DNA of 32,710 nucleotides from a virus. Below, in pieces: positions 10,692 to 29,167 of the stretch; positions within the stretch are counted from its first letter, which is position 1; each line of letters starts with the position of its first letter. Under the pieces are notes generated by a model. It did not search any database. It was not told the origin of the DNA and worked only from the letters and a program-made list of their open reading frames with translations. The stretch is taken from IMG/VR virus record IMGVR_UViG_3300025917_000047, positions 1-32,710 of that record; one strand, given 5' to 3'. The position numbers and the translations under genes were made by a program.

Positions 10692-10734
10692 TTGCAAACA
10701 TGCAACTGGACTTATATGAGCAAGACTCATGCCG
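10692..10734 (-). promoter_or_regulatory. Promoter cassette A (-24/-12-like element plus TTGCA palindrome)
   Basis: Minus-strand element CGGCATGAGTCTTGCT (10719-10734) has the GG/GC spacing of a sigma-54 promoter. The predicted start is near 10708. The palindrome TTGCATGTTTGCAA (10692-10705) covers about +3 to +16. It lies about 75 bp before the DUF932 start codon. Further TTGCAA half-sites lie upstream at about 10798 and 10816, and GTGGTGAACGA lies at 10772-10782. Confidence 0.6.
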
Positions 10735-10836
10735 AACTCAGAGAGAGCGTAAAGTGTTGATCCGCAATGTAGTGGTGAACGAATTGATTCTTAAACTTGC
10801 AAACCGCATTGTCCTTGCAACGCGGCCGCTTTGCGA

Positions 10837-11085
10837 CTATTCAGGTGACCATTTCTTCTGATAGTCTTTCAGTGCGGTGTCGAACTTCTCTTTGGCTTTG
10901 TCGCGCTTGGCTTCTAGCTCGGCGAGAGCTTCCTTGGCCTCCTTCAGATTGTCGACTCCGAATTCCTCTTCCAGCTGGGCTGTGATAGTCGTGAGAGCAC
11001 CCTTCGCTCGATCGGCTTCAGTCTTCGCGTTCTCTACATCTCGCTTGAGACGCCGATATGTTTCTTCATTTATCACTTCGCTCAT
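10837..11085 (-). CDS. Small coiled-coil protein
   Basis: 82 residues from the ATG at 11085, chosen for its AAGGA ribosome site five bases upstream. An ATG at 11121, overlapping the previous stop, would add 12 residues. The product is almost all helix (YRRLKRDVENAKTEADRAKG, then LKEAKEALAELEAKRDKAKE) with strong heptads, so a two-stranded coiled coil is likely. Function unknown; it is the last gene of its operon, before promoter cassette A. Confidence 0.75.
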   Translation of the reverse strand: MSEVINEETYRRLKRDVENAKTEADRAKGALTTITAQLEEEFGVDNLKEAKEALAELEAKRDKAKEKFDTALKDYQKKWSPE

Positions 11086-11117
11086 ACGTCCTTGTGGTAG
11101 ATCCCAGTTCCCAGGGG

Positions 11118-11231
11118 TCATTTCTTTTTCTTCAGTTTCATCAAATCAACGATCGTGCCTATCACGATGAGGGTCGTGCCTATCACAAAGATCCCTGCGG
11201 GGGATTCTATGAATTCTATCAACTGCTTCAT
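11118..11231 (-). CDS. 37-residue single-pass membrane peptide
   Basis: Starts MKQLIEFIESPAGIFVIGTT, continues through hydrophobic residues (TLIVIGTIVDLM) and ends in a KLKKKK tail. It fills the gap between two genes, with ATGA overlaps at both ends, and has GGAAAG before the start. Topology is probably N-out/C-in by the positive tail. Function unknown. Confidence 0.7.
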   Translation of the reverse strand: MKQLIEFIESPAGIFVIGTTLIVIGTIVDLMKLKKKK

Positions 11232-11377
11232 GGTTTCTTTCCTGTGATATGCTCTATCATTGCTTCAAGTTTGACGATTCTCATCTCCAGCTTCGCCAAT
11301 CCAATCATAACATGACAGCAGAGGATGCCTATGAGGCAGATTCCTACGATGAGAATGCCGGCGAAGATGGGATTCAT
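11228..11377 (-). CDS. 49-residue membrane peptide with helical tail
   Basis: MNPIFAGILIVGICLIGILC forms one transmembrane helix, followed by an amphipathic LEMRIVKLEAMIEHI helix. This layout resembles small phage holin- or spanin-like accessories, but there is no lysis gene nearby, so no role is assigned. The start at 11377 overlaps the upstream stop (ATGA). Confidence 0.65.
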   Translation of the reverse strand: MNPIFAGILIVGICLIGILCCHVMIGLAKLEMRIVKLEAMIEHITGKKP

Positions 11378-11634
11378 GGTATTAGAGGTTTGAAACACTC
11401 GTTGAATTCTTTGTCGGTGAGGACGAAGCAAGTTCCCACGTTGGGTGCCACCACCCAATCGCCTTCATTCGCCTCTATCACCTTCCCATACAGATCTATC
11501 GCAGTCCATCCCTTCTTATCTGAGACTTGGTGAAACTTCCTCGCCACCCAGACAGGGATGGGAGCCGTGTGACTGAACTGCCAAGCAGTCACGTCTTGCT
11601 TGTTTCCGAGGGTGGCACAATGAGTAGGTTTCAT
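11374..11634 (-). CDS. Conserved phage hypothetical protein
   Basis: 86 residues. The C-terminal half (GWTAIDLYGKVIEANEGDWVV then a DKEFNECFKPL ending) follows a pattern seen in many phage proteins, where a 'GDW(I/V)V' strand precedes a 'F...Y/F.P' ending. No function is known to me. Overlaps both neighbours. Confidence 0.75.
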   Translation of the reverse strand: MKPTHCATLGNKQDVTAWQFSHTAPIPVWVARKFHQVSDKKGWTAIDLYGKVIEANEGDWVVAPNVGTCFVLTDKEFNECFKPLIP

Positions 11635-11837
11635 CCGTCATTGTCCATTCTGTGTCTCAGTCTTGCTGCCCTGACATTCTCTTTGGTTGGGCGCTCGGCT
11701 TGGCAGATCGGGCAGACTTTCCATGTCCTGGGAATGACAATTACTTGTGGGATGGTTTGCTCTAAGAAGATAACCCAACCCCCCTTCGGCTGGTCCATCG
11801 GTGAACCCCACTGAATATGTTGACACCAGTTCCTCAT
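11631..11837 (-). CDS. Small protein with CPIC motif
   Basis: 68 residues from the ATG at 11837, which overlaps the upstream stop (ATGA). The core IPRTWKVCPICQAERP has one CxxC pair after a beta strand. Upstream Cys5 and other residues may complete a metal site, but I cannot confirm it. The C-terminus is basic. Function unknown. Confidence 0.7.
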   Translation of the reverse strand: MRNWCQHIQWGSPMDQPKGGWVIFLEQTIPQVIVIPRTWKVCPICQAERPTKENVRAARLRHRMDNDG

Positions 11838-12055
11838 CCCACAGTTCCAACTGAGAAGACTTTGGGCTGACCCACCAACACCCACACTCTCATCGCCGCG
11901 TCCAGGTTGCTGTTGACTTGGACGGTGAGGTCTTCACACTCGATGTAGAAGATCCTCTTCCCTTTGTCCACGAAATCATCGGGTTGGATGTAGGTTTCAC
12001 CATTGTTGGTGACGCAAACATATCCCGCCGGTATTACTTTGGTTGCTCTAGGCAT
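11834..12055 (-). CDS. Small beta-rich hypothetical protein
   Basis: 73 residues. Basic N-terminus (MPRATKVIPAGYV), then a YIQPDDFV segment and an all-beta pattern (RIFYIECEDLTVQVNS). Overlaps the end of the SbcD-like gene by 22 bp. Function unknown. Confidence 0.7.
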   Translation of the reverse strand: MPRATKVIPAGYVCVTNNGETYIQPDDFVDKGKRIFYIECEDLTVQVNSNLDAAMRVWVLVGQPKVFSVGTVG

Positions 12056-12981
12056 GATCGTATGATCTGCTTCACAGCAGGTGTCAGTTCTTCATCTCGC
12101 AGATGGTTTTCAACGGCCTCTCTGAAGTTCAGCCCGTGCTCGCCGAGTCCCTCTAGCCCGTCGATAAACTCTTTCATGTTCAACGGGACTTCTTCACGCC
12201 CGGCAATCTCTTCATGGAAGACATCGGCCGACGTGTCTAGCTTGCGACGCTTCACTGTGCCGTCTGAATAGATGATGCCCACGCTGGGATTGTAACCGAC
12301 TTCGTCAGACTTGCGACGGATGAATCCGCCGACATTGAGCACAGTCGTTCCTGACTTCAACTCGCTCAGGAAGCCCTTGTGATTGTCGCCGAAGATAGCG
12401 ACGTCGTAGCCTTTGAGGGACTTTGCAAACTTGCTGAGATTTGAATCTTCAGGTGCGCCGGGGTAGGAATGGAATTCGGTCCAGCAATAGCGATGGATGA
12501 GAGCTATTTGAGGGAAGTTTGACTCCGTGTAAACCTCATCTACTTTCGGTGGTGATTTGATCTCCCTCCCCCAGCCAAACCCAGAAATGATGAACACCCA
12601 CTTCGTTCCTCTATTCGGAGAATATTCTTCGTTGATGTCCACGATCTTGCCCACTTGCTTGAGCACACCATAACCACTGCGATGGATCTGATCTACACGA
12701 TGATTTGGAAGATCGTGCTGGCCTGGCACACAGATCATTCCATCCGGCAAGTGTTTGAGAGCGAAGTTGATGAGCTCTGGTGGCGCGTTCCATCGATCAA
12801 AAACATCCCCGGCACACAAAACGGGAACGCGAAGCTCATCGGCCATCTTCTTCACCTGATCGAGGTAGCCCGCTTGCACTGCCATCCAGTCCTTGTCGGC
12901 CCGGCAAGCAGGCTGCAAGAGCGAGAGGTGAAGGTCGGAGATGGCTATTGCGATGGGAGTGGCTGATGGCACAGCGGACAT
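12034..12981 (-). CDS. SbcD/Mre11-like metallophosphoesterase
   Basis: 315 residues from the ATG at 12981, preceded by AAGGAAAGG; a longer in-frame reading runs antisense to nothing recognisable. Metal-site motifs in order: SDLHL, GDVFDRW, GQHD (in place of the usual GNHD), ALIHRY and GDNHKGF. The fold is that of Mre11/SbcD nucleases, which resect DNA ends with an SbcC/Rad50 partner. Such a partner is encoded directly upstream and overlaps by 37 bp. The likely role is phage recombination or host-DNA processing. The Asn-to-Gln change in GQHD is unusual but tolerated in the superfamily. Confidence 0.85.
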   Translation of the reverse strand: MSAVPSATPIAIAISDLHLSLLQPACRADKDWMAVQAGYLDQVKKMADELRVPVLCAGDVFDRWNAPPELINFALKHLPDGMICVPGQHDLPNHRVDQIHRSGYGVLKQVGKIVDINEEYSPNRGTKWVFIISGFGWGREIKSPPKVDEVYTESNFPQIALIHRYCWTEFHSYPGAPEDSNLSKFAKSLKGYDVAIFGDNHKGFLSELKSGTTVLNVGGFIRRKSDEVGYNPSVGIIYSDGTVKRRKLDTSADVFHEEIAGREEVPLNMKEFIDGLEGLGEHGLNFREAVENHLRDEELTPAVKQIIRSCLEQPK

Positions 12982-13991
12982 TCCTTTCCTTTGACTTCTT
13001 TGTGAAACTTGTTCTCGGCGAGCCGAAGCTTCTCTTTCCAACTTGACTCGGCATTGTGAGCATCAACGAGACGGATATAGATGAAGCGCAGGTTGGTGAC
13101 TTTCGCATTCGCAGTCTGCCACTCATCGTAAGCAGTCGTGACAGAATCGAAGGGAGGTGGGGCTTTCACCTTCTGCAAGGCTTGAATGTCCTTGATAAGA
13201 TCTCTCAGAGAGTCAGCCGAGTTGTCGAATGCAATAGCATCACTCCCCAACCTGACGACTTCCTTCCCTTCCTCGTGCTTCTCTTCAAACTCGGTGATGC
13301 GGGTCTTCACTTCTCTCACTCTGGTGATGAGACTGCTGAGCCTGGTGAATCGTTCCTCAGCAGTAGTCAGGATCTCGAGATCGAGCTTGAGGTATTGAAA
13401 GTCGTCAATCCTACCCTCCATCGGCTTGAGCTTCTCATACTCTTCTTTCGCTTCGGTGAGACGCTCGTTGGTGAGGTCGATTCTCTCTTGAGACCTTCTC
13501 ACTTCTGATGCTATGTTGCCGAGCACATCGTCGATGACGCTGAGGTCGATGACTGAATTGAGACGACGAGATACCTCGCCGGCCGTCTCGTTGAACCAGA
13601 AGGGACTGTCATGCTGTGCTTGGAAATTGATTTCGTTGAGATGGAGGACATCGCGAATCTGCTTCGGCACGCCGGAACCAAAGGCTTTGAATTCCTCGCC
13701 GTCTAACTCGTAGGTGTTGACGCTTCCGCCCGTTCCTCTGACTCGTTTGATAGACCACTGACCTGGGTTCCCTTCCTCTTCGACTGTCAGCTTGATGACT
13801 GTCTTCTTCTCGCCTTCTTTGATGAAAGCTTCACCTGCGATGTCATTCAAGCACAGCCACCGTAGGGCCCGAAGCACTGAAGACTTCCCCACATCGGTCG
13901 GTCCTTTGATCGTCGTGATGCGAGGATCAAGCTCTATGACGAGCTCGTCATGCGCCTGGAAATTCACCAGTTTGATGGAGACGATTCTCAC
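12945..13991 (-). CDS. SbcC/Rad50-like ATPase, N-terminal half with zinc hook only
   Basis: 348 residues, GTG start at 13991 overlapping the previous stop (GTGA). The N-terminal ATPase lobe has Walker A GPTDVGKS at 30-37 and a Q-loop-like INFQAQHDSPF segment. A coiled coil follows (about 160-310), and the protein ends just after a zinc-hook CPLC (Cys338, Cys341). The second coiled coil and the C-terminal lobe with the ABC signature and Walker B are absent here. I see no other gene in this window that encodes them. It may act as a hook-dimerised half molecule with the SbcD-like protein. Confidence 0.8.
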   Translation of the reverse strand: MRIVSIKLVNFQAHDELVIELDPRITTIKGPTDVGKSSVLRALRWLCLNDIAGEAFIKEGEKKTVIKLTVEEEGNPGQWSIKRVRGTGGSVNTYELDGEEFKAFGSGVPKQIRDVLHLNEINFQAQHDSPFWFNETAGEVSRRLNSVIDLSVIDDVLGNIASEVRRSQERIDLTNERLTEAKEEYEKLKPMEGRIDDFQYLKLDLEILTTAEERFTRLSSLITRVREVKTRITEFEEKHEEGKEVVRLGSDAIAFDNSADSLRDLIKDIQALQKVKAPPPFDSVTTAYDEWQTANAKVTNLRFIYIRLVDAHNAESSWKEKLRLAENKFHKEVKGKECPLCHQPLPSQ

Positions 13992-14137
13992 GAGTTATTA
14001 TCTTTCTGACGCTTTACAAAGTCCTGCATGAGCTTCAAGATGACAGATTTCATTGTCTTGCCTCGCCGGGCGCAAGCGGCTTTGAATGAGCTCTTCACCC
14101 CTTCTGGAAGACCTTGAACTAGGAGGACATCCTTCAC
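13988..14137 (-). CDS. Small ribbon-helix-helix-like protein
   Basis: 49 residues with a GTG start (14137-14135) overlapping the SNF2 stop (GTGA), and a stop that overlaps the SbcC-like GTG. The sequence has a short strand (DVLLVQGLPEGV) then two helices (SSFKAACARRG and TMKSVILKLMQDFV), the plan of Arc/MetJ repressors. It may be a DNA-binding regulator acting as a dimer; the target is unknown. Confidence 0.7.
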   Translation of the reverse strand: MKDVLLVQGLPEGVKSSFKAACARRGKTMKSVILKLMQDFVKRQKDNNS

Positions 14138-15492
14138 GCGGCCATCCTTTCAATCAACTCGTCGAACATATTCAACTGACCGGTGTATTTCTTGCCGTCT
14201 AAGATCGCGTCGAGAATCTTCGTCTTCTTCTTAAGGATGGTGACTTGCTTCTCCTCGATGGTGTCCAAGGCCATCAGGTAATGGATCATGACCTTCTTCT
14301 TCTGTCCAATGCGATGAATGCGATCTTCTCCCTGAAGCAAGTCTCCTGGTGTCCATGGAAGGTCCAGTGCCGCCGCGTTGGATGCCGCTGTGAGTGTGAT
14401 ACCTACCCCTGCCGCTCGCCAGTTGCCGAGAAGCAAATCGACTCTTCGGTTGGATTGAAAGCATCTACGAGTCTCCTCTCGTTTCCTTCCAGTCACCCGA
14501 CCGTCGATGATGACGGCGCGATTGCCGAACTTCTGTTTCAAATGATCTATGACGAACGTCCAGCACGTCAACGCAACGAGTTTCTCGCCGGGATGGGATT
14601 CATAGAACTCTTCAATCCAACGCTCGGTCCACACCAGCTTCAACCTTGCTGCGAGTCGTATCAGGTAGCCCATCTTCGCTAGTGCTTCGGCTCGCTTGGC
14701 TCGCACCGCTCTCTGTGGACTGATTCGTCTGAGCCAGAGCAGGAAGTCGTTCTCGGCTTGGTCATACTCTTCATAAGACTTGAGCTTGAAGGGGACCATG
14801 CATCGTGTTTTATTGGGCAGTTCTGCTAGGACATCCTTTTTCAAGCGTCGAATCATGCAAGATCGACGCAAGATCGCGTGGAGCTCTGGCATCCTTACTG
14901 CACCATCGTAGAGCCAGCCCCACCTCGTCCATCTCGGCTTGCAATAGCGCCAAGCATACTCTTCTCTGGAAGGGAACAAATCAGGTTTGATTGCTTTCAG
15001 GATCGTCCACAATTCGATCGGCCGATTGGTGAGGGGAGTGCCGCTGAGGCCCAGCACTGAAGAGGCCTTCTTCGCCAGCTTCAGCGCGGCTTTGGTTCGC
15101 ATGGCACTGGGGTTCTTGATGTAGTGGCACTCATCCAAGATCACGCACTGCGGTTTGGCTTTCATCAAGGACGGCAACCAAGAGCGAAGAATGTCGTAGT
15201 TGACGATGATGATCTCTTCAGGGATGAGTTGGGTTCGCTCACCTCTGTGATGCCCTTCAAGGACTTCGGTTCTCATGCCGAAGTGAAGAGCAGCCTCACT
15301 CTGCCAGACATATTTCACACTCGCCGGCGTGACGATGACGACAGGTCTCCTCTTAGGGATCTTCTTCACCCAGTAGAGTGCCTGGATCGTCTTGCCCAGG
15401 CCCATTTCATCCGCCAGCAGAGTGCGACCTTTGAAGTGGTAGATCTGCTGGACCCCTTCTATCTGAAACGGTCTAAGTTTTGTCTCTTTCAA
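14134..15492 (-). CDS. SNF2-family DNA helicase/translocase
   Basis: 452 residues with all SNF2 motifs. Motif I is DEMGLGKT (28-35); then VIVTPASV; motif II is DECH (120-123); motif III is LGLSGTP; motif V is AAGVGITLTAASN; motif VI is GEDRIHRIGQ. It is a compact single-subunit form without extra domains, as in many phages. It should be an ATP-driven dsDNA translocase, with probable roles in recombination, replication restart or remodelling. A QLNMFDELI tail near the C-terminus resembles a clamp-binding peptide (QLxxF form), which fits a clamp gene in this genome. Confidence 0.92.
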   Translation of the reverse strand: MKETKLRPFQIEGVQQIYHFKGRTLLADEMGLGKTIQALYWVKKIPKRRPVVIVTPASVKYVWQSEAALHFGMRTEVLEGHHRGERTQLIPEEIIIVNYDILRSWLPSLMKAKPQCVILDECHYIKNPSAMRTKAALKLAKKASSVLGLSGTPLTNRPIELWTILKAIKPDLFPSREEYAWRYCKPRWTRWGWLYDGAVRMPELHAILRRSCMIRRLKKDVLAELPNKTRCMVPFKLKSYEEYDQAENDFLLWLRRISPQRAVRAKRAEALAKMGYLIRLAARLKLVWTERWIEEFYESHPGEKLVALTCWTFVIDHLKQKFGNRAVIIDGRVTGRKREETRRCFQSNRRVDLLLGNWRAAGVGITLTAASNAAALDLPWTPGDLLQGEDRIHRIGQKKKVMIHYLMALDTIEEKQVTILKKKTKILDAILDGKKYTGQLNMFDELIERMAA

Positions 15493-15495
15493 TTG

Positions 15496-16032
15496 TCATG
15501 CCCAGGCTGCTTGGAATTTCTCGCAAATCTCTTTGTGGGCCTTGTCGACCCTTTCCTTGGGCTTGCCACCACGCACCAGGATCTCCTTCACTTTGTAAAG
15601 GAACTGACGCGGCGTCATCTTCGAGCCTATCAGCTCGCCTGGTGTCTCGAGCAAGAGCCCGATGATCTCCTTCGCGTCCTCGGACAAGTCATCAATCATG
15701 TCCAGCGTTGGGCTTCGCTCTGGAGCCGCTTCACCGAAGATCTCCTCCTTCACTTCGATGAAGGTGAGCGGATCCGTTGTCCGCTTGGTAATGAGAGTCT
15801 TCAAGTGGCACCATACCCAGGTGTAGGCCCAAGACGAAAACTTCGTTTCTCGGGCAGGGTTGTAATCGTAGCAGGCGCGGACGAAGGCATAGTAAGCCTC
15901 TCGCTTAGCCTCTTCGAAGTCGATTGGGTAGGTGTTTGTGAATTTCCAAGCAAGGTTGTAAAGCATCTTTTCCACCTTGGGAAATTCCTCTTCTGGATTG
16001 ACGGCAGGCATGTGGTTCATATGGTTTTGCAT
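15496..16032 (-). CDS. Sigma-factor region-2-like protein
   Basis: 178 residues from the ATG at 16032. Residues about 20-75 (LYNLAWKF, then YPIDFEEAKREAYYAFVRACYDYNP and KFSSWAYTWVWCHL) match the region 2 core of sigma-70 proteins, which binds the RNA polymerase beta-prime coiled coil and the -10 element. A conserved-looking DLSEDAKEIIGLLLETPGEL helix follows. I see no region 4 in the C-terminal half. A separate region-4-like protein lies at 30333-30578. Its own promoter (TTGCAA...TATACT) lies directly upstream, with almost no leader. It may redirect the host polymerase to phage promoters (inference). Confidence 0.7.
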   Translation of the reverse strand: MQNHMNHMPAVNPEEEFPKVEKMLYNLAWKFTNTYPIDFEEAKREAYYAFVRACYDYNPARETKFSSWAYTWVWCHLKTLITKRTTDPLTFIEVKEEIFGEAAPERSPTLDMIDDLSEDAKEIIGLLLETPGELIGSKMTPRQFLYKVKEILVRGGKPKERVDKAHKEICEKFQAAWA

Positions 16033-16041
16033 GACAGATCG

Positions 16042-16069
16042 AGTATAGTGTGGGCCACTAGGTTTGCAA
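16042..16069 (-). promoter_or_regulatory. Sigma-70-type promoter for the sigma-like gene
   Basis: Minus strand: -35 TTGCAA (16064-16069), 16-bp spacer, -10 TATACT (16042-16047). The start would fall about at the ATG at 16032, giving a leaderless or very short leader mRNA. Confidence 0.6.
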
Positions 16070-16078
16070 GTGTTTCTT

Positions 16079-16651
16079 TTAAGCGAGACGGAAGACGTTC
16101 CACCCGTATTGCCTACCGTGTCGGAAGCTGATACCCGCTGCGGTGAGTCGTTTCTTGATCTCTTCGGCAAGGATGTCGTCGAGGTTGTGAGCCTTGGTTC
16201 CCCACTCCTTATGGAGTTTGATGTATTCATCCTTGCCTGCATCATCTTTGGGGAAGTTGATGCGTTTTGGTGCTTTACCGGCAAGGACGTCCTGACGCGC
16301 TTCGACCATCACGTAGGAGGGACTCATCTCAACCTTCTCTCCAAAGCTGATTGACGATCCTTCGTAGACGTGAACCGACGGGCTGTCTTTGAATAATGCC
16401 TGCGCTTGAGCGACGATCTTCGCTCTCTTCTCTGGCCCGGTCTCAGCTGTGGTTCCTGTTTCGAGGAGTTCGTAGTTCAGCTCTACTTTGACAAGCCGGA
16501 GATACCTGAATTCCTTCTTGGCTTTTTCGTAGGCGACTTTGGCATCTTGAAGGTTGGGATATCCCAGCATACCAAGCCGATACCAGGTGGTCTTGTCTCC
16601 ACTGTGGTGAACCTCGAATCTCTTCTTAGTCCATGTTTTCTCTTCTTTCAT
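16079..16651 (-). CDS. Hypothetical phage protein
   Basis: 190 residues. AAGGA precedes the ATG by about 9 bases. The N-terminal 60 residues alternate strands and helix (RFEVHHSGDKTTWYRLG, then a DAKVAYEKAKKEFRYLRLVK segment typical of phage 'measured-data' domains of unknown role). The middle is helical, and the C-terminus is basic and aromatic (HGRQYGWNVFRLA). No catalytic motif recognised. Last gene of the operon driven by promoter cassette B. Confidence 0.75.
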   Translation of the reverse strand: MKEEKTWTKKRFEVHHSGDKTTWYRLGMLGYPNLQDAKVAYEKAKKEFRYLRLVKVELNYELLETGTTAETGPEKRAKIVAQAQALFKDSPSVHVYEGSSISFGEKVEMSPSYVMVEARQDVLAGKAPKRINFPKDDAGKDEYIKLHKEWGTKAHNLDDILAEEIKKRLTAAGISFRHGRQYGWNVFRLA

Positions 16652-16928
16652 CGTTTTTCCTTTTGGTTCTTCCGCAGAGTATTTGAATCATTCCCACTAC
16701 ACGTCGAGGCCTCTGTGGGCTCGCCTTCAACGTAAATTCTTTGTGACCTTTCATCAACACAATCGTCTCGGTGATGATATATTCTTTCATCCCATTTGAT
16801 CCGAGCGGGCGATCCGGCTCGGTGATCTCTCTCGTGCCGAGCATCGCTCCCGTCACCGCGTCCATCAGGTCTTCCCTAAATCCTAAGACCTCGAACGGGC
16901 AGTCGTCCGGGTTGAAGAAAGGGTTCAT
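16626..16928 (-). CDS. Hypothetical protein
   Basis: 100 residues. A FREDLMDAVTGAMLGTRE segment followed by a beta-rich KEYIITETIVLMKGHKEFTL part and a basic tail with CGRTKRKNDERR. Overlaps both neighbours (26 bp at the downstream end). Function unknown. Confidence 0.7.
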   Translation of the reverse strand: MNPFFNPDDCPFEVLGFREDLMDAVTGAMLGTREITEPDRPLGSNGMKEYIITETIVLMKGHKEFTLKASPQRPRRVVGMIQILCGRTKRKNDERRENMD

Positions 16929-17807: not shown

Positions 17808-17834
17808 ATCTTTTCTTTTCTATGTCGTTTTGTT

Positions 17835-17876
17835 TTGCATGTTTGCAACTGACTTTTATGAGCAAGATTCATGCCG
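17835..17876 (-). promoter_or_regulatory. Promoter cassette B (-24/-12-like element plus TTGCA palindrome)
   Basis: CGGCATGAATCTTGCT on the minus strand (17861-17876); predicted start near 17850. Palindrome TTGCAAACATGCAA at 17835-17848, about +2 to +15. It drives five genes down to 16079. Confidence 0.6.
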
Positions 17877-18088
17877 ATTTCATTCAGCGTAAGAAGCATT
17901 GAGAGTCAATGAGTGTCGCTCACCGTCTCGTTTGCAGATATAATAATGCAACGTGGACGCATTGCAAAGTGTAGCACATGAAGATAATAGTCTTGGAGAT
18001 GACGGGTCTCGGTATCACACCTGTCATCCTCCGGGTTGGGCCCGGGAAGGGGTTTTGCATAACTTGACCTTCCCGGGCCTATTCCTTT
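17877..18088 (+). promoter_or_regulatory. Intergenic control region upstream of the primase
   Basis: 212 bp between divergent genes. It contains TTGCA...TGCAA half-sites near 17935-17955, and TTGCAA (near 17965) followed by AGATAATAG as a possible plus-strand promoter. A perfect 12-bp hairpin, GGCCCGGGAAGG with a 17-base loop (18039-18050 and 18068-18079), ends 9 bases before the primase ATG. No Shine-Dalgarno is visible between hairpin and ATG. Confidence 0.55.
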
Positions 18089-21424: not shown

Positions 21425-21449
21425 TTGTCGTTTCTTTCTGTTTTTCGCC

Positions 21450-21493
21450 TTGCATAATTGCAAAGCTAGTTTGTATGAGCAAGATTCATGCCG
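21450..21493 (-). promoter_or_regulatory. Promoter cassette C (-24/-12-like element plus TTGCA palindrome)
   Basis: CGGCATGAATCTTGCT (minus strand, 21478-21493); predicted start near 21467; palindrome TTGCAATTATGCAA at 21450-21463. Upstream, 21500-21580 holds several more TTGC/GCAA half-sites, including TTGCGGTTTTGCAA. Drives the 18.9-21.4 kb operon. Confidence 0.6.
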
Positions 21494-21580
21494 AACGTGT
21501 TTTATTGCGGTTTTGCAAATGAATTCATTGGTGGTGTTTGCAACCGCAATGTTTTGCACTGCGGTTGCAAAACAGGTTGA

Positions 21581-21893: not shown

Positions 21894-21904
21894 GGCGGCA
21901 TCGA

Positions 21905-22204: not shown

Positions 22205-22212
22205 TTTTGTCC

Positions 22213-22407: not shown

Positions 22408-22409
22408 AT

Positions 22410-22706: not shown

Positions 22707-22710
22707 ATTC

Positions 22711-23084: not shown

Positions 23085-23094
23085 GTTTGTCGTT

Positions 23095-23137
23095 TTGCAT
23101 TATTGCAACTGATATTAAATAAGCAGGTTGTGTGCCG
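23095..23137 (-). promoter_or_regulatory. Promoter cassette D, diverged copy
   Basis: CGGCACACAACCTGCT (minus strand, 23122-23137). The spacer differs from the other copies but both end blocks are kept, and GGCAC is closer to the sigma-54 consensus. Palindrome TTGCAATAATGCAA at 23095-23108. Drives 21.6-23.1 kb. Confidence 0.6.
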
Positions 23138-23145
23138 AATCTGAG

Positions 23146-23331
23146 TCAGTTCACGCTCCCGTCTGGCGAAATCTCGCGATACTCTGTCGTGAACTTGTTC
23201 GGCTTTCGTTTCATAACCATGCACCCCAGTTCGGGGTTTTCTTCTTGCGCGGAGATCCAATTCGAGAATCGGAATCCTTCCTTTTTGAGTTTCTTCTCGG
23301 CTTCAATTTGCTGTGCTGTTATGTTATACAT
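23146..23331 (-). CDS. Small hypothetical protein
   Basis: 61 residues: AEKKLKKEGFRFSNWISAQE helix then beta strands (ELGCMVMKRKPNKFTTEYRE). Last gene of the long operon from cassette E. Function unknown. Confidence 0.7.
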   Translation of the reverse strand: MYNITAQQIEAEKKLKKEGFRFSNWISAQEENPELGCMVMKRKPNKFTTEYREISPDGSVN

Positions 23332-23337
23332 AATCTA

Positions 23338-23526
23338 TTAGGCGAATGGTTCTCCCAACCAAGGGAATCGCGAGGTGAAGTCTTGCCAATTCAAACTGTA
23401 ACCTGCGGCCCAGTTGGCGATGGCATCAACCTTCTCTTTGTCTGTCATGTAAGGGAGAAGCACGCCGGTTTGAATGGCGAGTTTTGTCAGTTGACGAGTG
23501 CTCAATTTGCGTAGGTTTGTCTTCAT
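23338..23526 (-). CDS. Small hypothetical protein
   Basis: 62 residues from the ATG at 23526 (ATGA overlap). N-terminal KLSTRQLTKLAIQTGVLLPY looks like a helix-turn-helix-like or SAP-like segment, then a DKEKVDAIANWAAG helix and an aromatic tail. Function unknown. Confidence 0.65.
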   Translation of the reverse strand: MKTNLRKLSTRQLTKLAIQTGVLLPYMTDKEKVDAIANWAAGYSLNWQDFTSRFPWLGEPFA

Positions 23527-23615
23527 AAGATGATGAGTGCTAGCCACAGCAGGCTGAATAGGATTAGTCCTGCTTTGGCGAGTTGATAGGAGTCGATGTT
23601 GATAAGATGATTCAT
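23523..23615 (-). CDS. 30-residue membrane peptide
   Basis: MNHLINIDSYQLAKAGLILF opens the product; the rest is a hydrophobic LLWLALIIL tail: one transmembrane helix at the C-terminus. Both ends overlap neighbours by ATGA, which argues for translation. Function unknown. Confidence 0.55.
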   Translation of the reverse strand: MNHLINIDSYQLAKAGLILFSLLWLALIIL

Positions 23616-23989
23616 GTGAAAAACCACGCTCCAATTTCTTTGTCGTTCGTGTCTACCGTCTTCACCTCGCGCAAGCTGGGCTTCTCGTCGGTCGCCTTGT
23701 AGCATTTCCCTGTCGCCCAAACGACAGCATCAAATATCCACAAGCTACCTCGACAGCTAACGGCGAACTGAGCGACTTCGACTCCGTCAACGTAGAGCAC
23801 ACAGAACTCTTCGTGTTGAGTGCAGTCGACCACTACGCCGGTTTTTGGCAGTTCATCTTCACCGTCGTAGTCTATCACCTCAGTTCCTTCAGGAATGCCA
23901 CAGAGGCGATAAACCTCAGCCTGCTGCTTGGCAATCTCGTTGTCGCGGCTGTCCATTGCGTCCCAAAACTCTTTGTCAGTGTCGCTCAT
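23612..23989 (-). CDS. Hypothetical protein
   Basis: 125 residues. Helical start (EFWDAMDSRDNEIAKQQAEV), then beta-rich TGVVVDCTQHEEFCVLYVDG and a C-terminal WIFDAVVWATGKC block. Three or four cysteines without CxxC pairs. Function unknown. Confidence 0.7.
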   Translation of the reverse strand: MSDTDKEFWDAMDSRDNEIAKQQAEVYRLCGIPEGTEVIDYDGEDELPKTGVVVDCTQHEEFCVLYVDGVEVAQFAVSCRGSLWIFDAVVWATGKCYKATDEKPSLREVKTVDTNDKEIGAWFFT

Positions 23990-24477
23990 ATGCTGCCTCC
24001 AATCTCTTCTAAGATTTCTCTCACCTTTTCGATTAGTTCGAGATGGTTGCTGAAAGCCTGCTCTTCGGCGGTTTTCTCCGCTTGGGATAGGATTTCTTTG
24101 ACCTCGTCGCTGGCATGTCCGTTATTAGCTAGCCATCTCGCGTTCTCTCTCTGTTTCTCTCGCGTTTTCTCTACTTCCTTAAGGGCATTTCCAAGATGGT
24201 GCTCTAGGATGCGAGAGATGCTGTCCTCGTAGCGGTCGATTTCTGCTTTCGCAGCCTTGACGCGCTGGTCCACAGCGTATCTCGGCTCAACCATGATGGC
24301 GTAGGATGTCCCGTGGTGTCCTCGGCTGAGAGGATCGGGAGGAATTGAGACGATGATCGCCTTGTATCCTGCCTTGCGGTATTCCTCAAGTTTCGGCTTT
24401 AGCGTCTCACGTTCATACCCCCAGGCGAAGTGCCCAGTGTGTTCGTAGCCTCGCCGTGCTGCGGTATTCTTGTTCAT
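23986..24477 (-). CDS. Hypothetical helical protein
   Basis: 163 residues. N-terminal domain with GYKAIIVSIPPDPLSRGHHG and a YAIMVEPRYAVD strand. The rest is a long acidic-basic helix (DRYEDSISRILEHHLGNALK onward), probably a coiled coil. Function unknown. Confidence 0.7.
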   Translation of the reverse strand: MNKNTAARRGYEHTGHFAWGYERETLKPKLEEYRKAGYKAIIVSIPPDPLSRGHHGTSYAIMVEPRYAVDQRVKAAKAEIDRYEDSISRILEHHLGNALKEVEKTREKQRENARWLANNGHASDEVKEILSQAEKTAEEQAFSNHLELIEKVREILEEIGGSI

Positions 24478-24803
24478 TCGACTTCCTCTTCTCCTTCGTC
24501 AATCGTTTCCATCTCGATTTTCACCTCACCGTTGACAGTGAGTTTGCTGATGCTGTCGCAACCGTCACCATTCCTCTCCTCGATCTCTTTCAAGATAAGT
24601 TCGGGCGTCCAAGGAACTCCCTCTTCATAGTCGTCGTCAAGTCCGTAGAAATGTTTCTCGCAGACTCGTGTCAGGACCTTCACCAAGTCAGTTCCTTTGT
24701 AGGTGCGTTTGAACCTGACCCCGTCACCAAATCGTTCGTAGGAGTGTCCTTCAACTACGACGACGTGCTGGTAGGGTTTGCCGCTAAGTTTGATTGTTTT
24801 CAT
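24474..24803 (-). CDS. Hypothetical acidic protein
   Basis: 109 residues. Beta-rich N-terminus (KPYQHVVVVEGHSYERFGDG), a helical middle, and an acidic EMETIDEGEEEVE tail. Function unknown. Confidence 0.7.
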   Translation of the reverse strand: MKTIKLSGKPYQHVVVVEGHSYERFGDGVRFKRTYKGTDLVKVLTRVCEKHFYGLDDDYEEGVPWTPELILKEIEERNGDGCDSISKLTVNGEVKIEMETIDEGEEEVE

Positions 24804-24808
24804 ATTGC

Positions 24809-25000
24809 TTACTTGCTGACTGCGACGGTAAAACCTTTCAGTCCTGTGGTGATGGGAGCACCACCTACGACGTCGAGAAAATGTTGACTTTCCTCGACTG
24901 TGTCAAATCGGTAGAGCCGGACGTTGCCGAATTCCTTCGTCCATTCGGTGCCGATGTAGTGCTTCCGTCTCAACTTCTTCGCCTCTTGTTTCAGTTTCAT
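24809..25000 (-). CDS. Small hypothetical protein
   Basis: 63 residues from the ATG at 25000 (ATGA overlap). Basic start (KLKQEAKKLRRKHY), then VRLYRFDTVEESQHFLDVVG, a strand-helix pattern. Function unknown. Confidence 0.7.
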   Translation of the reverse strand: MKLKQEAKKLRRKHYIGTEWTKEFGNVRLYRFDTVEESQHFLDVVGGAPITTGLKGFTVAVSK

Positions 25001-25218
25001 GTTTTTGGGTAGTAGTCTGTTGAATACATGATGAGCCAAATACCGTTGCCCTTGTGAAGAGCCTTGAATATGGTAGCGCCATCAAGTGGGTTTGTCGCGA
25101 CTGTGGTTTGTGCGTCTCGGTTTTCGGTGACGACACCCCCAGCCTTCTTTACTTCTCGGCTGGCACGCACAACATCGTCGCGCTTGCCAATCCTACCAAA
25201 CAGTTTTGAGTCTTTCAT
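24997..25218 (-). CDS. Small hypothetical protein
   Basis: 73 residues from the ATG at 25218, which has AAGGA seven bases upstream. Basic N-terminus (KLFGRIGKRDDVVRASREV) then beta strands ending IWLIMYSTDYYPKT. Function unknown. Confidence 0.7.
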   Translation of the reverse strand: MKDSKLFGRIGKRDDVVRASREVKKAGGVVTENRDAQTTVATNPLDGATIFKALHKGNGIWLIMYSTDYYPKT

Positions 25219-25219
25219 A

Positions 25220-25453
25220 TCATTCCTTATCAATTATGTTCACGTCGTCCCGGCACAGGTTCCACCACTTTCCAATCAATTCATTTACCTTTACCGTGGT
25301 GTCTTCCTCGAACTCAGCGATGTCTTCGTAACCCATGCTCTGCACTAGCAGGAGCATGTCTTCAATCGTCGTCACCTTCACATTGCCGTCATCGTCTTCT
25401 TGCAATGTTGGGATTTCGATGTCTTCGTCGTGTTTTGCGCTATATGTCTTCAT
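25220..25453 (-). CDS. Small acidic protein
   Basis: 77 residues from the ATG at 25453 with AAGGA upstream. Acidic throughout (HDEDIEIPTLQEDDDGN, then GYEDIAEFEEDTT). Acidic DNA-mimic functions are known in phages, but nothing specific supports one here. Function unknown. Confidence 0.7.
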   Translation of the reverse strand: MKTYSAKHDEDIEIPTLQEDDDGNVKVTTIEDMLLLVQSMGYEDIAEFEEDTTVKVNELIGKWWNLCRDDVNIIDKE

Positions 25454-25461
25454 AGATTTCC

Positions 25462-25662
25462 TTAGTTTCCACTGCGCCTGCTCAGCCAATATGCCGTGTC
25501 TGCAAGCCCGTCTGCAGCCTTGCGCCACGCACCGCTGTCGTTGCCGTCACCTTCCATGTGCTCGGCTGTCTCTCTACACTGTGCGGACATTGCACGCACC
25601 AGCTCTTCAAATTGCTGTGCATCCAACTCTCGCACAATCTCGACTAGGTCTTGAAGTTCCAT
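25462..25662 (-). CDS. Small protein of the EELVRA family
   Basis: 66 residues from the ATG at 25662. MELQDLVEIVRELDAQQFEE opens it, with LVRAMSAQCRETAEHME next, and it ends in a SRRSGN tail. Third copy of the family seen at 22213 and 22410. Function unknown. Confidence 0.7.
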   Translation of the reverse strand: MELQDLVEIVRELDAQQFEELVRAMSAQCRETAEHMEGDGNDSGAWRKAADGLADTAYWLSRRSGN

Positions 25663-25663
25663 A

Positions 25664-26041
25664 TCAGTGTGCGTTCTCCTTCCATGACGGCTTTTTGTTA
25701 CCCCACGCGCTCCAGTAGATTTTGGATGTGAATTTGAATTCACCTTTGCCAAATTCAGCAAAGTAAAGTTCACCAACAACCTCAGTCACCCGTCCCTTCA
25801 TCCGGTGGCCGGATTCAAACGTGACGTGGACTTTGTCACCAACCTTAAGGATTGGCGCTTTATCTTCGGCTGGAGTAATTGTGAATTCACCAGCAGGCAC
25901 TGAAGTGACGATTTCGATAAGTTCACCACCGTCGCCTCTGACTTCTTTGCACCACTTGGCGTGGGCGCGGACTGCCTTTTCACTTTTGAAAGGGCCGACG
26001 TAGGCGTTGACTAAGTCTTGGAAATGTCCAAATAATTTCAT
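25664..26041 (-). CDS. Hypothetical protein with SH3-like barrel
   Basis: 125 residues. The N-terminal half is helical (FQDLVNAYVGPFKSEKAVRA). The C-terminal half reads like a small beta barrel (LKVGDKVHVTFESGHRMKG, then VTEVVGELYFAEFG and FKFTSKIYWS), as in KOW/SH3-type folds. Function unknown. Confidence 0.7.
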   Translation of the reverse strand: MKLFGHFQDLVNAYVGPFKSEKAVRAHAKWCKEVRGDGGELIEIVTSVPAGEFTITPAEDKAPILKVGDKVHVTFESGHRMKGRVTEVVGELYFAEFGKGEFKFTSKIYWSAWGNKKPSWKENAH

Positions 26042-26046
26042 ATGTC

Positions 26047-26253
26047 TTATTTGAGTTTGCCGACGGTGCGGTTGATGGTGGCGCAGCGGCCGATGGCATT
26101 GTTGACATAGAAGTCTAAACAGACTATGTCGTGTTCGAGGGGGCTCTTGTTAAGCACAACGGAGGTGCTCCATTGCACTGCGGCAAGCGCCTCGCGGGCC
26201 TGCACTAGCAAAGCCTGCACCTTGCTGAGTTTGTCGTTTTGTTCTGTTTTCAT
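26047..26253 (-). CDS. Small protein, first gene after cassette E
   Basis: 68 residues from the ATG at 26253. Helical (KLSKVQALLVQAREALAAV), with two cysteines. The start is directly preceded by AAAACGACAAA. First of about twelve genes in this operon. Function unknown. Confidence 0.7.
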   Translation of the reverse strand: MKTEQNDKLSKVQALLVQAREALAAVQWSTSVVLNKSPLEHDIVCLDFYVNNAIGRCATINRTVGKLK

Positions 26254-26282
26254 TTTGTCGTTTTGTTTATTCTCTGCTTCGT

Positions 26283-26326
26283 TTGCACCGTTGCAAACTT
26301 GCTTTGTATGAGCAAGATTCATGCCG
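26283..26326 (-). promoter_or_regulatory. Promoter cassette E (-24/-12-like element plus TTGCA palindrome)
   Basis: CGGCATGAATCTTGCT on the minus strand (26311-26326); predicted start near 26300; palindrome TTGCAACGGTGCAA at 26283-26296. Upstream are a degraded palindrome near 26335, GTGGTGAACGA at 26373-26383 (shared with cassette A), a TCACC-N9-GGTGA inverted repeat, and a partial CGGCAT element at 26377-26392. Confidence 0.6.
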
Positions 26327-26481
26327 ATTTTGATTTTGCAAATATGCTAAGGGATTTTGCTCACCGTGATTCGTGGTGAACGATTTATGCCGAATTGCAA
26401 TGCAAATTGTATGCGATTGCTTTGCGAATGAAATCACTACTTGCACACTGCTGAAAGACATCTTACTGTGAAAAACGACTT

Positions 26482-27252
26482 ATGAAAGCGAATAAGAAGA
26501 TTAACCTCAAATTCCTTCTCACACTGTATGATTGTCTCCTGAGAGGCATGAAATTGGGCGCCTTGTCTGCCACGCTAGACGTGCCCCAAGACACTTTGAA
26601 TTGGTGGAGAAAGAACCGTGAAGACGTGAAGACGGTGTATGAAGTGGCTGAGGCGAGAAAACAGAGAGTGGCAGACTTCAATGAATTCATGTTAGGGAAA
26701 TTGAGCAAGCCTGCAAGGAAGATGTGGAACCGGGTGGAGTGGTATTTAGAGGCTGATGAAAATGAGGTGCCGGACGTGATGAATGGAGACCTCGCGAATG
26801 AATTGAGGCAAGAGATATTCCTCCACGCGATGTTGTCAACCAATTGGAACACAAGCAAATCTGCACGTTTGGCTGGGGTGACACGAGACACAGTTGAACG
26901 TTGGAAGGAACAGGTGAATTTTAAGATGGCAATGAAGGAATTGCAAGAGGCGAAGAAAGATTATTTTGAGACGGCATTGATGAGATTGGTAGATGAGGGT
27001 TATCCAGGGGCGATAGTATTCGCAAACCGAACACAGAATGCCGACAGGGGATACAACGAGAAGATGCAAGTGGAACATACGGGGACGATTCACCATGCGG
27101 CATTGAATTTAGATGACCTCGAGCTTGACTTCGAAACCAGAAGGAAGATATTGGACGCGGTTCGAAGAAAACGAGAGCTCGAGCCGAAAAGATTGACAAG
27201 TGGTGAGGTGACAGATGCTGAAATTGTAGAGGAGAAAAAAGAAGAAGGATAG
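26482..27252 (+). CDS. Terminase small subunit-like protein
   Basis: 256 residues. Two helix-turn-helix-like segments (LGALSATLDVPQDTLNWWRK near 25-50 and SKSARLAGVTRDTVERWKEQ near 120-140). A C-terminal block AIVFANRTQNADRGYNEKMQ then VEHTGTI is, to my eye, typical of phage small terminase/DNA-packaging proteins, where 'NADRGY.EK...HTGTI' precedes an acidic tail. Expected role: recognising the packaging site and passing DNA to the large subunit. No large subunit follows. The leader contains AAAACGAC just before the ATG. Alternative: a generic DNA-binding regulator. Confidence 0.65.
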   Translation: MKANKKINLKFLLTLYDCLLRGMKLGALSATLDVPQDTLNWWRKNREDVKTVYEVAEARKQRVADFNEFMLGKLSKPARKMWNRVEWYLEADENEVPDVMNGDLANELRQEIFLHAMLSTNWNTSKSARLAGVTRDTVERWKEQVNFKMAMKELQEAKKDYFETALMRLVDEGYPGAIVFANRTQNADRGYNEKMQVEHTGTIHHAALNLDDLELDFETRRKILDAVRRKRELEPKRLTSGEVTDAEIVEEKKEEG

Positions 27253-27468
27253 GCAAATGGAGATGCTAAAGTGAAAAATAAAGCTGGACACAAAGAAGAA
27301 ACCCCGATAAGACCCGAATAACGAAATCACCTAATCTACCCGAATCTGCTAATCTCTGCTTGCTCGCCGTCCCCGCAGTCTTTCCCATGTTCTTCACCTT
27401 ATCACCATCCACAGAAAATCCCACCTCGCGATGGGTGGGATATCCTTTCTTTATTAGGTATTGGTTGT
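27253..27468. other. Non-coding gap with terminator
   Basis: 216 bp between convergent genes. I see no supported gene. It holds the terminator hairpin at 27418-27441, and A/T-rich sequence elsewhere. Confidence 0.6.
27418..27441. terminator. Bidirectional intrinsic terminator
   Basis: ATCCCACC (27418-27425) pairs with GGTGGGAT (27434-27441) across an 8-base loop. On the plus strand TATCCTTTCTTTATT follows; on the minus strand ATTTTC follows. It sits between the ends of the TerS-like gene and the minus-strand operon. Confidence 0.7.
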
Positions 27469-27801
27469 TTAGTCGTTCCAGATGATTATCTTCGTTCCAC
27501 GTGCTCTAGGCACCCGCTTCAATGCCTGTTTAGTCGGCACCAAAGTCCATGACTCCAGTTCACCGTCAACAGCTCGTTCTTGTTCAATTACCACGTAGTC
27601 AACTTCCTCACCAGTGCGTGCTGAAACGAGCGTCATTCCCTCGTCGCAAGCGTCTGGATACACCTGGTGGAACACGAGACTCCTCGCTTTCGTCTTGCGA
27701 GAGGGGTCGCTTTCGTCGGCATTTCCCTCTAGCGTAGACATCTCCTGGAAGAAGGTTTTGGTGCCCTTGTCGTAGGCGAATAGTTTGGTTGTCGCTCTCA
27801 T
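27469..27801 (-). CDS. Hypothetical protein
   Basis: 110 residues from the ATG at 27801 (ATGA overlap). Beta-rich (TLVSARTGEEVDYVVIEQE, then SWTLVPTKQALKRVPRARG) with a KIIIWND end. Function unknown. Last gene of the operon before the terminator. Confidence 0.7.
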   Translation of the reverse strand: MRATTKLFAYDKGTKTFFQEMSTLEGNADESDPSRKTKARSLVFHQVYPDACDEGMTLVSARTGEEVDYVVIEQERAVDGELESWTLVPTKQALKRVPRARGTKIIIWND

Positions 27802-27992
27802 TTGACGAACTCCTTTTGGAGCTTGCCCAGCTCGTCGCATTGGCGAAAGCCCTGGCAGAACAGCGTGGTGAAGGTGTCTTGGCACAGCGCCTTGTCCATC
27901 TTCTCGCCGTATATGCTCGCGTTGGCTTTGGTGATCGAGTTGTGGTATTTCACCAGCAACTTCGCCAGTTGGATGATTTCTTCAGGTGTCAT
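27798..27992 (-). CDS. Small helical protein
   Basis: 64 residues from the ATG at 27992, preceded by AAACGACAAA. Helical (TPEEIIQLAKLLVKYHNSIT, then TTLFCQGFRQCDELGKLQKE). Function unknown. Confidence 0.7.
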   Translation of the reverse strand: MTPEEIIQLAKLLVKYHNSITKANASIYGEKMDKALCQDTFTTLFCQGFRQCDELGKLQKEFVK

Positions 27993-28018
27993 TTTGTCGT
28001 TTTGTTTTGGGTTGAGGG

Positions 28019-28294
28019 TTAAGCGGTGAAATCGTTGCAAATCCCTGCCACAGCGTCTTCTAGCATTTCCGCGAGCTCGATCCACTCAGGGCCGTTGACG
28101 GGATCTGAGCCGGAAATGTAGCGGAGGCATTCCGCGTAGAGCACACATTCTTGTTTGTTGGCGACCTCGAGCAGGTAGAGGTCTTCACCTACATTCATGT
28201 AGGACAGCGCCGTCGTTTTGTAGAGGTTGCAGTCGAGGGCGAGGCGGACTGCCTCCAGCTGCCACTTTTTGCAGGATATGAGTATTTTTGTCAT
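28019..28294 (-). CDS. Hypothetical protein
   Basis: 91 residues. Opens TKILISCKKWQLEAVRLALD, a strand-helix unit, then YLLEVANKQECVLYAECLRY, with six cysteines spread along it. AAACGACAAA precedes the start. Function unknown. Confidence 0.7.
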   Translation of the reverse strand: MTKILISCKKWQLEAVRLALDCNLYKTTALSYMNVGEDLYLLEVANKQECVLYAECLRYISGSDPVNGPEWIELAEMLEDAVAGICNDFTA

Positions 28295-28325
28295 TTTGTC
28301 GTTTTGGTTTGATGTTTACCGCCTA

Positions 28326-28352
28326 CGGCGCTTGCGGGTTAGGCAAGCGCCG
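28326..28352. terminator. GC-rich hairpin between minus-strand genes
   Basis: CGGCGCTTGC and its exact complement with a 7-base GGGTTAG loop (10-bp stem), about 13 bp past the stop of the 28365 gene. No U run; possible weak terminator or processing site. Confidence 0.5.
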
Positions 28353-28364
28353 GCGGCGAGAAAC

Positions 28365-28823
28365 TTAGTTGTTGACGGCGAGCAAGGCGTTGGCGGCGAA
28401 GTAGCGGAATTGCTTTTTGCCGTTTACCGTTTCCTGCGTGCGGGTAGCGCCTTTGTTGTGCGCAACCATCCAGCAGAGCTGCGAGCTTACTAAGGATTTG
28501 GATTCCCCAGTGGCAGCGGCGACTTCCGCGATTGTTGCGCCGGTTGCGCCGGCGTTAATTACGGCGACGTTAATGTTGGACATGCGTGTTCCCAAACGCC
28601 CTCCAAACGCGTCGCGCTTGCTGCTTACTGCGGGTGTAGCCGGCGCGGGTGCGGGTGCTTCCGGCGCGGCAGCAGGCACTTCCTCCTGCAACTGTGCGAC
28701 AGCGGCGGCTTGCTCCGAGTCGGACAGCGGCGCTTGGGGCGCTTGGTCGAGGACAGCGGCAGGAGCGGCGTCGAGGACAGCGGGGGTGACGGGGTTCGAG
28801 TTTTTGTTTTTGTTTTTCTTCAT
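28365..28823 (-). CDS. Ala/Pro-rich protein with C-terminal winged-helix-like domain
   Basis: 152 residues. A Lys/Asn-rich start (KKNKNKNSNP), then an Ala/Pro/Glu low-complexity tract to about residue 67, then a domain with KRDAFGGRLGTRMSNINVAV, a TIAEVAAATGESKSLVSSQL helix-turn-helix-like stretch and a GKKQFRYFAAN strand. The domain lines up with the C-terminal domain of the 3789-4406 protein (DAFG, internal HTH-like helix, closing RR/KK-x-Y/F strand), so the two share one plan. Probable DNA-binding protein. Codon use is unusually GCG/CGC-rich here. Confidence 0.8.
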   Translation of the reverse strand: MKKNKNKNSNPVTPAVLDAAPAAVLDQAPQAPLSDSEQAAAVAQLQEEVPAAAPEAPAPAPATPAVSSKRDAFGGRLGTRMSNINVAVINAGATGATIAEVAAATGESKSLVSSQLCWMVAHNKGATRTQETVNGKKQFRYFAANALLAVNN

Positions 28824-28860
28824 ATACTGTTTTTGTGTTTTTGTCGTTTTTGTTTTTGCA

Positions 28861-28920
28861 GCGTTAGTGCTGCGTTGCGTGCATTGCGCTTGCGTGCAAC
28901 ACGCAACGCAAAACTAATGC
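28861..28920. repeat. Long stem-loop over the end of the 28914 gene
   Basis: TGCGTTGCGTG (28871-28881) pairs exactly with CACGCAACGCA (28900-28910). After a 2x2 internal loop, GCGTTAGT (28861-28868) pairs with ACTAATGC (28913-28920), with one non-Watson-Crick position. The TAG stop of the upstream gene lies in the outer stem. The 18-base loop also contains GCG/TTGC words. Confidence 0.65.
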
Positions 28921-29138
28921 ACAATAGCAACTACCTCCGCGCCGCGTGTGTAATAGCTAAACGCGCTGCGTCCGCGTTGCGCTTGCGTGTAGCGCGTATG
29001 TGTGTATCCTAACTTGCGTAAAAAACGCGCTGTTTTGCGCGCCTCCTGTGTGCTGTTTACGCTTATGTAGCGCGTTGCGTTTTGTGTGTGCATAGTAGTG
29101 TTTTTGTTACTGTGTTTTTGTTTTTGCATTTCCGACAT
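28914..29138 (-). CDS. Small basic protein, first gene after element F
   Basis: 74 residues from the ATG at 29138; another ATG at 29129 is possible. Begins MSEMQKQKHSNKNTTMHTQN and continues with basic, Tyr-rich KTARFLRKLGYTHTRYTQ. The predicted transcript start for element F lies at about 29141, so a leaderless start is possible. Coding DNA is full of CGCAACGC-type words. Function unknown. Confidence 0.6.
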   Translation of the reverse strand: MSEMQKQKHSNKNTTMHTQNATRYISVNSTQEARKTARFLRKLGYTHTRYTQAQRGRSAFSYYTRGAEVVAIVH

Positions 29139-29151
29139 ACGCTTAACATAT

Positions 29152-29167
29152 AGCAGGCTACATGCCG
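29152..29167 (-). promoter_or_regulatory. -24/-12-like element F
   Basis: CGGCATGTAGCCTGCT on the minus strand. Same end blocks and spacing as cassettes A-E but without the palindrome just downstream; a palindrome copy lies upstream instead. Confidence 0.5.

Follow-up and report, generated by a model that had tools for sequence, protein, structure and literature searches.

Bacterial RNA polymerase carrying sigma-54 is unable to start transcription without an ATP-driven activator; activators such as LuxO and NtrC open its closed complexes, and its enhancers normally lie about 80–150 bp upstream. Sigma-54 also needs one fixed spacing between its promoter blocks, whereas sigma-70 spacers vary. 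Early phage promoters are usually served by the host's main sigma factor, and in the T4 sigma cascade gp55 acts with gp33 at the late promoter TATAAATA. The published sigma-54 consensus is TGGCAC-N5-7-TTGCT (PMC12316311), and the LuxO-binding sequence TTGCAW3TGCAA is found at −89 to −119 of the qrr genes (PMC11443567, PMC10162802). The P7 protein of phage Xp10 is reported to inhibit the sigma-54 polymerase (PMC5053324). We found no phage with sigma-54-dependent early transcription in the open-access literature, where absence is no proof.

The 32,710-nucleotide stretch analysed here (the window) is a fragment of an uncultivated caudovirus, a soil phage. It encodes a portal, a terminase-like small subunit, a primase, a DnaB-like helicase, an SbcC-like exonuclease and a SNF2 helicase, together with GTP cyclohydrolase, radical-SAM, PTPS and queuine-transferase-like genes; this combination is known from 7-deazaguanine DNA modification. 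An earlier note had described six minus-strand copies of CGGCAY-N5-YTGCT in this DNA, each upstream of an operon, with conserved end blocks, free middle bases and GG and GC at the −24/−12 distance of sigma-54 promoters. Our results favour, with a probability of roughly 0.6, a model in which these sites are sigma-54-type, enhancer-dependent early promoters that feed a phage-sigma cascade.

The six sites are all present where they had been reported, and they are the only matches in the window (Table 1). Dinucleotide shuffles gave a mean of 0.02 matches and a maximum of 1, and the pattern read backwards gave zero. The gap between CGGCAY and TGCT is N6 only, with every other gap from 0 to 12 empty. 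Allowing 2 mismatches yielded 37 matches against 30 expected, nothing above chance, so the window holds six sites and no more. We placed the predicted +1 where sigma-54 polymerase would begin, 11 nt beyond the −12 C. A same-strand, ATG-started ORF of at least 50 codons follows 6/6 sites at a distance of 4–77 nt (ORF starts at +4, +48, +28, +44, +44, and +8 or +77). One correction to the earlier description is that core promoter 3 lies within the 3′ end of the preceding gene, not in an open intergenic gap.

Table 1. Positions of the promoter-related features in the window.
Feature	Position	Strand	Remarks
Core promoter 1, CGGCATGTAGCCTGCT	29152..29167	-	Head of small-gene early region; predicted +1 29141, ATG +4
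Core promoter 2, CGGCATGAATCTTGCT	26311..26326	-	Predicted +1 26300
Core promoter 3, CGGCACACAACCTGCT	23122..23137	-	Predicted +1 23111; without upstream boxes
Core promoter 4, CGGCATGAATCTTGCT	21478..21493	-	Predicted +1 21467
Core promoter 5, CGGCATGAATCTTGCT	17861..17876	-	Predicted +1 17850; operon includes phage sigma gene
Core promoter 6, CGGCATGAGTCTTGCT	10719..10734	-	Predicted +1 10708; ahead of DUF932 gene
Promoter 1 boxes	29222..29271		About −130 to −81; full dyad TTGCA-N4-TGCAA at 29222
Promoter 2 TTGCA boxes	26395..26405		About −105 to −95
Promoter 4 boxes	21538..21570		About −103 to −71; inside long dyad
Promoter 5 boxes	17932..17967		About −117 to −82; positions same in G001
Promoter 6 boxes	10797..10820		About −112 to −89; G001 positions near-identical
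Promoter 2 TTGC-N6-GCAA dyad	26283..26296	-	7-bp 5′-terminal RNA hairpin
Promoter 3 TTGC-N6-GCAA dyad	23095..23108	-	5-bp hairpin
Promoter 4 TTGC-N6-GCAA dyad	21450..21463	-	Extended 8-bp hairpin, z −3.9
Promoter 5 TTGC-N6-GCAA dyad	17835..17848	-	5-bp hairpin
Promoter 6 TTGC-N6-GCAA dyad	10692..10705	-	6-bp hairpin
Phage sigma, sigma-70 region 2 only (PF04542)	15496..16146	-	Downstream of promoter 5
76-aa protein, sigma-70 region 4 (PF04545)	30348..30578	+	Possible second half of split sigma
AGATAATA copy	10642..10649	-	Before DUF932 gene, which also has promoter 6
AGATAATA copy	17982	+	
AGATAATA copy	29512	+	
AGATAATA copy	20337	-	
AGATAATA copy	13996	-	
AGATAATA copy	7493	-	
AGATAATA copy	6834	-	
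AGATAATA copy	4470	-	
AGATAATA copy	1011	-	

Related phages, represented by contigs from other samples, extend the family. Close relatives of the window phage contribute 12 more sites with the same fixed spacing: two in G001, whose sigma protein is 74% identical to that of the window (G001:24404 and G001:18185, the orthologs of core promoters 5 and 6), and five each in L099 and L103, both of which carry an ortholog of core promoter 1. Two further pattern matches in L099 (8726 + and 8747 −), which face each other in a dyad-rich stretch, were excluded from this count, and matches in L077 were rejected as promoters because they form a tandem repeat. A sister phage, G007 (67 kb; portal 61% identical), adds three sites, CGGCATGRGCTGTGCT. 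Across the resulting 21 sites from five phages or fragments, CGGCA at −26 to −22 and TGCT at −14 to −11 are invariant, −27 is occupied by either T or C, and the bases in between vary. GG (−25, −24) and GC (−13, −12) recur at one spacing in 21/21 sites, so the block structure and the −24/−12 distance described for six sites hold for the enlarged set. The fixed spacing, the invariant GG and GC and the conservation in relatives, together with the upstream boxes and downstream hairpins described below, give good support to the view that the CGGCAY sites are promoters of a single family whose two blocks, set at the sigma-54 distance, are read by a protein. Positions −10 to −4 are also partly conserved (A-9, A-4), which is more than sigma-54 would predict. 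G016 has a tentative related site, CAGCACGCAACCTGCT, immediately ahead of its sigma gene; it reads CAGCAC, with AG replacing the −24 GG. The family is absent from G012, G017 and G020, and a de novo dyad search in the other relatives revealed no comparable family besides AGATAATA, discussed below, and a different early element in G012.

Against the published consensus, the six window sites match 10 or 9 of the 12 specified positions, with C at −26 in all of them where the consensus has T. They rank top in the window in a scan with this a-priori consensus, but 20 stretches scored at least 13 both in the window and in the reversed control, so the ranking is weak by itself.

The sites are accompanied by upstream elements. 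At the 13 window-group sites that are intergenic, we counted 37 TTGCA/TGCAA boxes between −125 and −70, compared with a mean of 1.3 and a maximum of 6 in shuffles, and none between −27 and 0. Sigma-54 enhancers are normally found in just this region. In the non-coding DNA of the window, 21 boxes fall in the 710 nt near sites versus 7 in the 3,885 nt elsewhere, and promoters embedded in genes mostly lack them. Both arms of the long dyad at promoter 4 co-vary in L099 and L103. G007 carries a dyad, GTGTATA-N5-TATACAC, instead of TTGCA boxes, centred at about −96; only two full copies occur in its 67 kb, both at core promoters. The same core with a diverged dyad would fit a conserved sigma factor and a faster-evolving activator, and we regard the boxes as putative binding sites of a sigma-54 activator. 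These conserved flanks, like the downstream hairpins described below, had escaped the earlier note.

An alternative that we consider unlikely is that the sites serve the host primary sigma as promoters of an extended −10-like kind (TGCT-CATA, with the −10 at TGCTCATA), helped by an activator at the TTGCA boxes, the −24/−12 likeness being due to chance. This sigma is the usual reader of early phage promoters, and the site-1-type TGCTATACT of L099 and L103 comes near an extended −10. However, −11 in the extended −10 register is not conserved whereas the GC-rich blocks are, CGGCA lies at the wrong distance for a −35 element, and −75 to −125 is a long way upstream for the boxes of an ordinary activator.

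The proposed cascade turns on the phage's own sigma factor, which gave profile matches to RpoS and RpoD structures. Its gene lies downstream of site 17861, and the genes between the two share their strand; the same order, a CGGCAY site and then sigma, is found in G001, G007 and probably G016. A second promoter-like family, AGATAATA, occurs mostly a few bases ahead of start codons, with 9 copies in the window (control, 2), 13 in G007 (1), 16 in G012 (5), 14 in G017 (2) and 6 in G001 (1). It is missing from the 20.4–29 kb small-gene stretch that is home to 4/6 CGGCAY sites. Among the phages gone through in full, those bearing the sigma carry AGATAATA, with G016 having the version AGATAACA; G020 has neither sigma nor AGATAATA. 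From this co-occurrence, the phage sigma appears better matched to AGATAATA than to the CGGCAY sites. Because AGATAATA tracks the sigma and a CGGCAY site stands upstream of the sigma gene, we propose an early-to-later cascade in which the CGGCAY promoters would be expressed early and the AGATAATA promoters later.

It is quite improbable, in our view, that the phage sigma together with the region 4 protein instead reads the CGGCAY and YTGCT-CATA blocks themselves, even though genes for the two halves of a sigma-70-type factor are present and A-9 and A-4 are partly conserved after the core. With a centre-to-centre distance of about 12 bp, the blocks sit too near each other to be read as −35/−10 elements, and, being GC-rich and separated by 5–6 bp, they show neither a 16–18 bp spacing nor an AT-rich −10-only element. 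G012 and G017 have the same sigma and AGATAATA without the CGGCAY family, and it is AGATAATA or its G016 version that accompanies the sigma and disappears with it in G020. Moreover, the CGGCAY site ahead of the sigma gene would have to function while no phage sigma had yet been made.

A further feature is a clear dyad just past the predicted start in 14/18 window-group sites. When RNA was folded from the predicted +1, 5/6 window leaders opened with a 5–8 bp hairpin followed by an A-rich unstructured leader. Where a hairpin is present its main stem starts between +2 and +5, and this agreement between hairpin position and predicted RNA end lends indirect support to the inferred start points. Site-1 orthologs have no downstream hairpin; their ATG is at about +4 and a full TTGCA-N4-TGCAA dyad lies upstream. 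The downstream dyad may act as an RNA hairpin, given where its stems begin, or as a DNA operator, given that the same dyad occurs upstream as boxes.

Another explanation is that the sites are operators for a phage regulator beside promoters of another type, the block from CGGCA to GCAA forming one regulatory array. TTGCA-N4-TGCAA dyads both upstream and just past the start would suit such an array. It is nevertheless very unlikely: the CGGCAY/YTGCT blocks lack dyad symmetry and always point to a gene, no other promoter-like element is common to the sites, and the hairpin starts follow the predicted +1. Promoters of a virion-injected, single-subunit phage RNA polymerase are scarcely credible. 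The stretch TGCTCACTAAA in the sites of two relatives may recall T3/T7-type cores, and near-identity and strand bias are frequent in such promoters, but the middle five bases vary freely, ACTAA shifts by 1–2 bases relative to TGCT, and 35 related contigs gave no match to a T7-type polymerase (PF00940), although the control genomes were equally blank.

In the sigma-54 model, host RpoN polymerase would bind CGGCAY-N5-YTGCT as a closed complex, which an activator on the TTGCA/TGCAA boxes about 75–125 bp upstream would open. Transcripts would begin about 11 nt beyond the −12 C, in most cases with an A, and the short 5′-terminal hairpin with which most leaders open would probably protect the RNA. 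Promoter 5 would yield the phage sigma, which would then read the AGATAATA promoters before replication, modification and structural genes. The sigma-54 interpretation put forward in the earlier note is partly supported, and by considerably more than the likeness of a motif: the promoter family has its fixed spacing and invariant GG/GC, the relatives, the enhancer-like boxes and the hairpins behind it, while host RpoN is a putative reader. Weighing against RpoN are the AG of the G016 site, the invariant C at −26, the conserved bases between −10 and −4, the poor separation from background by the a-priori consensus, the scarcity of boxes at gene-internal promoters and the matter of the activator: we recognised no enhancer-binding activator (bEBP) in the sister contigs or in those proteins of the window that we tested. 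The activator may therefore be a host protein, be encoded in unseen parts of the genome, or be of another kind. Most PF00158 (AAA+) matches in relatives extend over no more than the model's first third, and we rejected these matches as activators, the four that were translated in full being DnaX-like clamp loaders. Proteins of the early region (20–29 kb) tested against Pfam gave no convincing family.

Sequence searches gave few hints of the host. Comparison with genome contigs returned just two distant MAG contigs, from different phyla, and in tblastn comparisons with phage isolates the sigma had no match, the only hits being remote ones for primase and exonuclease. AGGA/GGAG precedes 22% of window starts versus 13% at random, a weak use of ribosome-binding sites, and so this signal does not name the host.

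Since the sigma-54 polymerase needs an activator, dependence on it would, if the model is true, make the onset of infection conditional on a signal in the host, for instance nitrogen, stress or cell density. It would also mean that uncultivated soil phages run a two-step cascade, in which a phage sigma acting at promoters of its own takes over from the sigma-54-type early ones. The broader proposition, that a soil-phage lineage runs its early transcription through host sigma-54 and phage-borne enhancers and then through a split sigma reading AGATAATA, so that infection starts only with the activator on, is more tentative, and we would put it at slightly less than an even chance. Promoters of this kind are already known; what would be new is a phage that builds its early programme on them, enhancers included.

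In summary, the sites resemble bacterial sigma-54 promoters in the GG/GC at −24/−12, the fixed spacing and the TGGCAC-N5-TTGCT-like bases, and the LuxO-activated qrr promoters of Vibrio in having boxes around −90 to −120 with a TTGCA...TGCAA sequence. They differ in being phage-borne, in the C at −26, in having mostly half-boxes and in the extra dyad or hairpin at the RNA start; the full dyads have an N4 spacer as against W3 in LuxO sites, and LuxO itself is not claimed. P7 of Xp10 is likewise a phage link to sigma-54, the major variant form of host RNA polymerase, but P7 is reported to be an inhibitor, whereas the phage described here would use the sigma-54 polymerase. The resemblance to T4 lies in domain layout, a small region-2-only sigma and a separate region-4 protein as in gp55/gp33, in an 8-bp −10-like element (AGATAATA) with no visible −35, as in the T4 late promoter, and in a clamp-loader gene, here in relatives. 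Unlike in T4, AGATAATA lies nearly at the start codon, and the cascade would be fed from sigma-54-like early promoters rather than from host sigma-70 ones.

A second promoter-like family, AGATAATA, is present on both strands of the window and is retained in sister phages; its occurrence goes with that of the phage sigma gene. Start codons mostly follow these window copies by only 3–15 nt, which implies that the transcripts have very short leaders or are leaderless. Shine-Dalgarno motifs are scarce at gene starts in the window, several early genes having, for example, AAAACGACAAATG there; the window has eight copies of a leader motif, AAACGACAAA, and the two related contigs L099 and L103 have five to six.

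In relatives, AGATAATA also occurs in an extended, duplicated form. The middle part of this element in L155, a stretch of a relative's DNA, closely matches the sigma-54 consensus, and its copy at 9269 has AGATAATT in place of AGATAATA. Sister phage G012 carries a different repeated element between 12.8 and 20.4 kb (L132-L133), AGCTAAAGTAT followed by CCCTAAGGGC...GACGATAA, with about 9–10 copies ahead of small genes; this is apparently another early control element. In sister phage G007, the segment 4102-4294, which holds the promoter at 4279 together with the beginning of the next gene, has a near-identical second copy at 50692.

Promoter-like elements and genes in the window and its relatives
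Feature	Position	Strand
AGATAATA, window	17982, 29512	+
AGATAATA, window	20337, 13996, 10642, 7493, 6834, 4470, 1011	-
AGATAATA then TGGYATYGAGCTTGCTATTAGGGGAGTATG or near variants, duplicated	L155:9269, 12238	+
AGATAATA then TGGYATYGAGCTTGCTATTAGGGGAGTATG or near variants, duplicated	G012:14888 and 17478	-
Sigma-70 region 2 protein	15496-16146	-
Sigma-70 region 4 protein	30348-30578	+
Queuine-transferase-like, GTP cyclohydrolase I, radical SAM and PTPS genes, consecutive	961-3681	-

The consecutive row of queuine-transferase-like to PTPS genes probably serves 7-deazaguanine modification of the phage DNA. Finally, sigma-70 region 2 and region 4 each have a small protein to themselves in the window, encoded on opposite strands; it looks as though the phage sigma were split between them, an arrangement that can be compared with gp55 and gp33 of T4.
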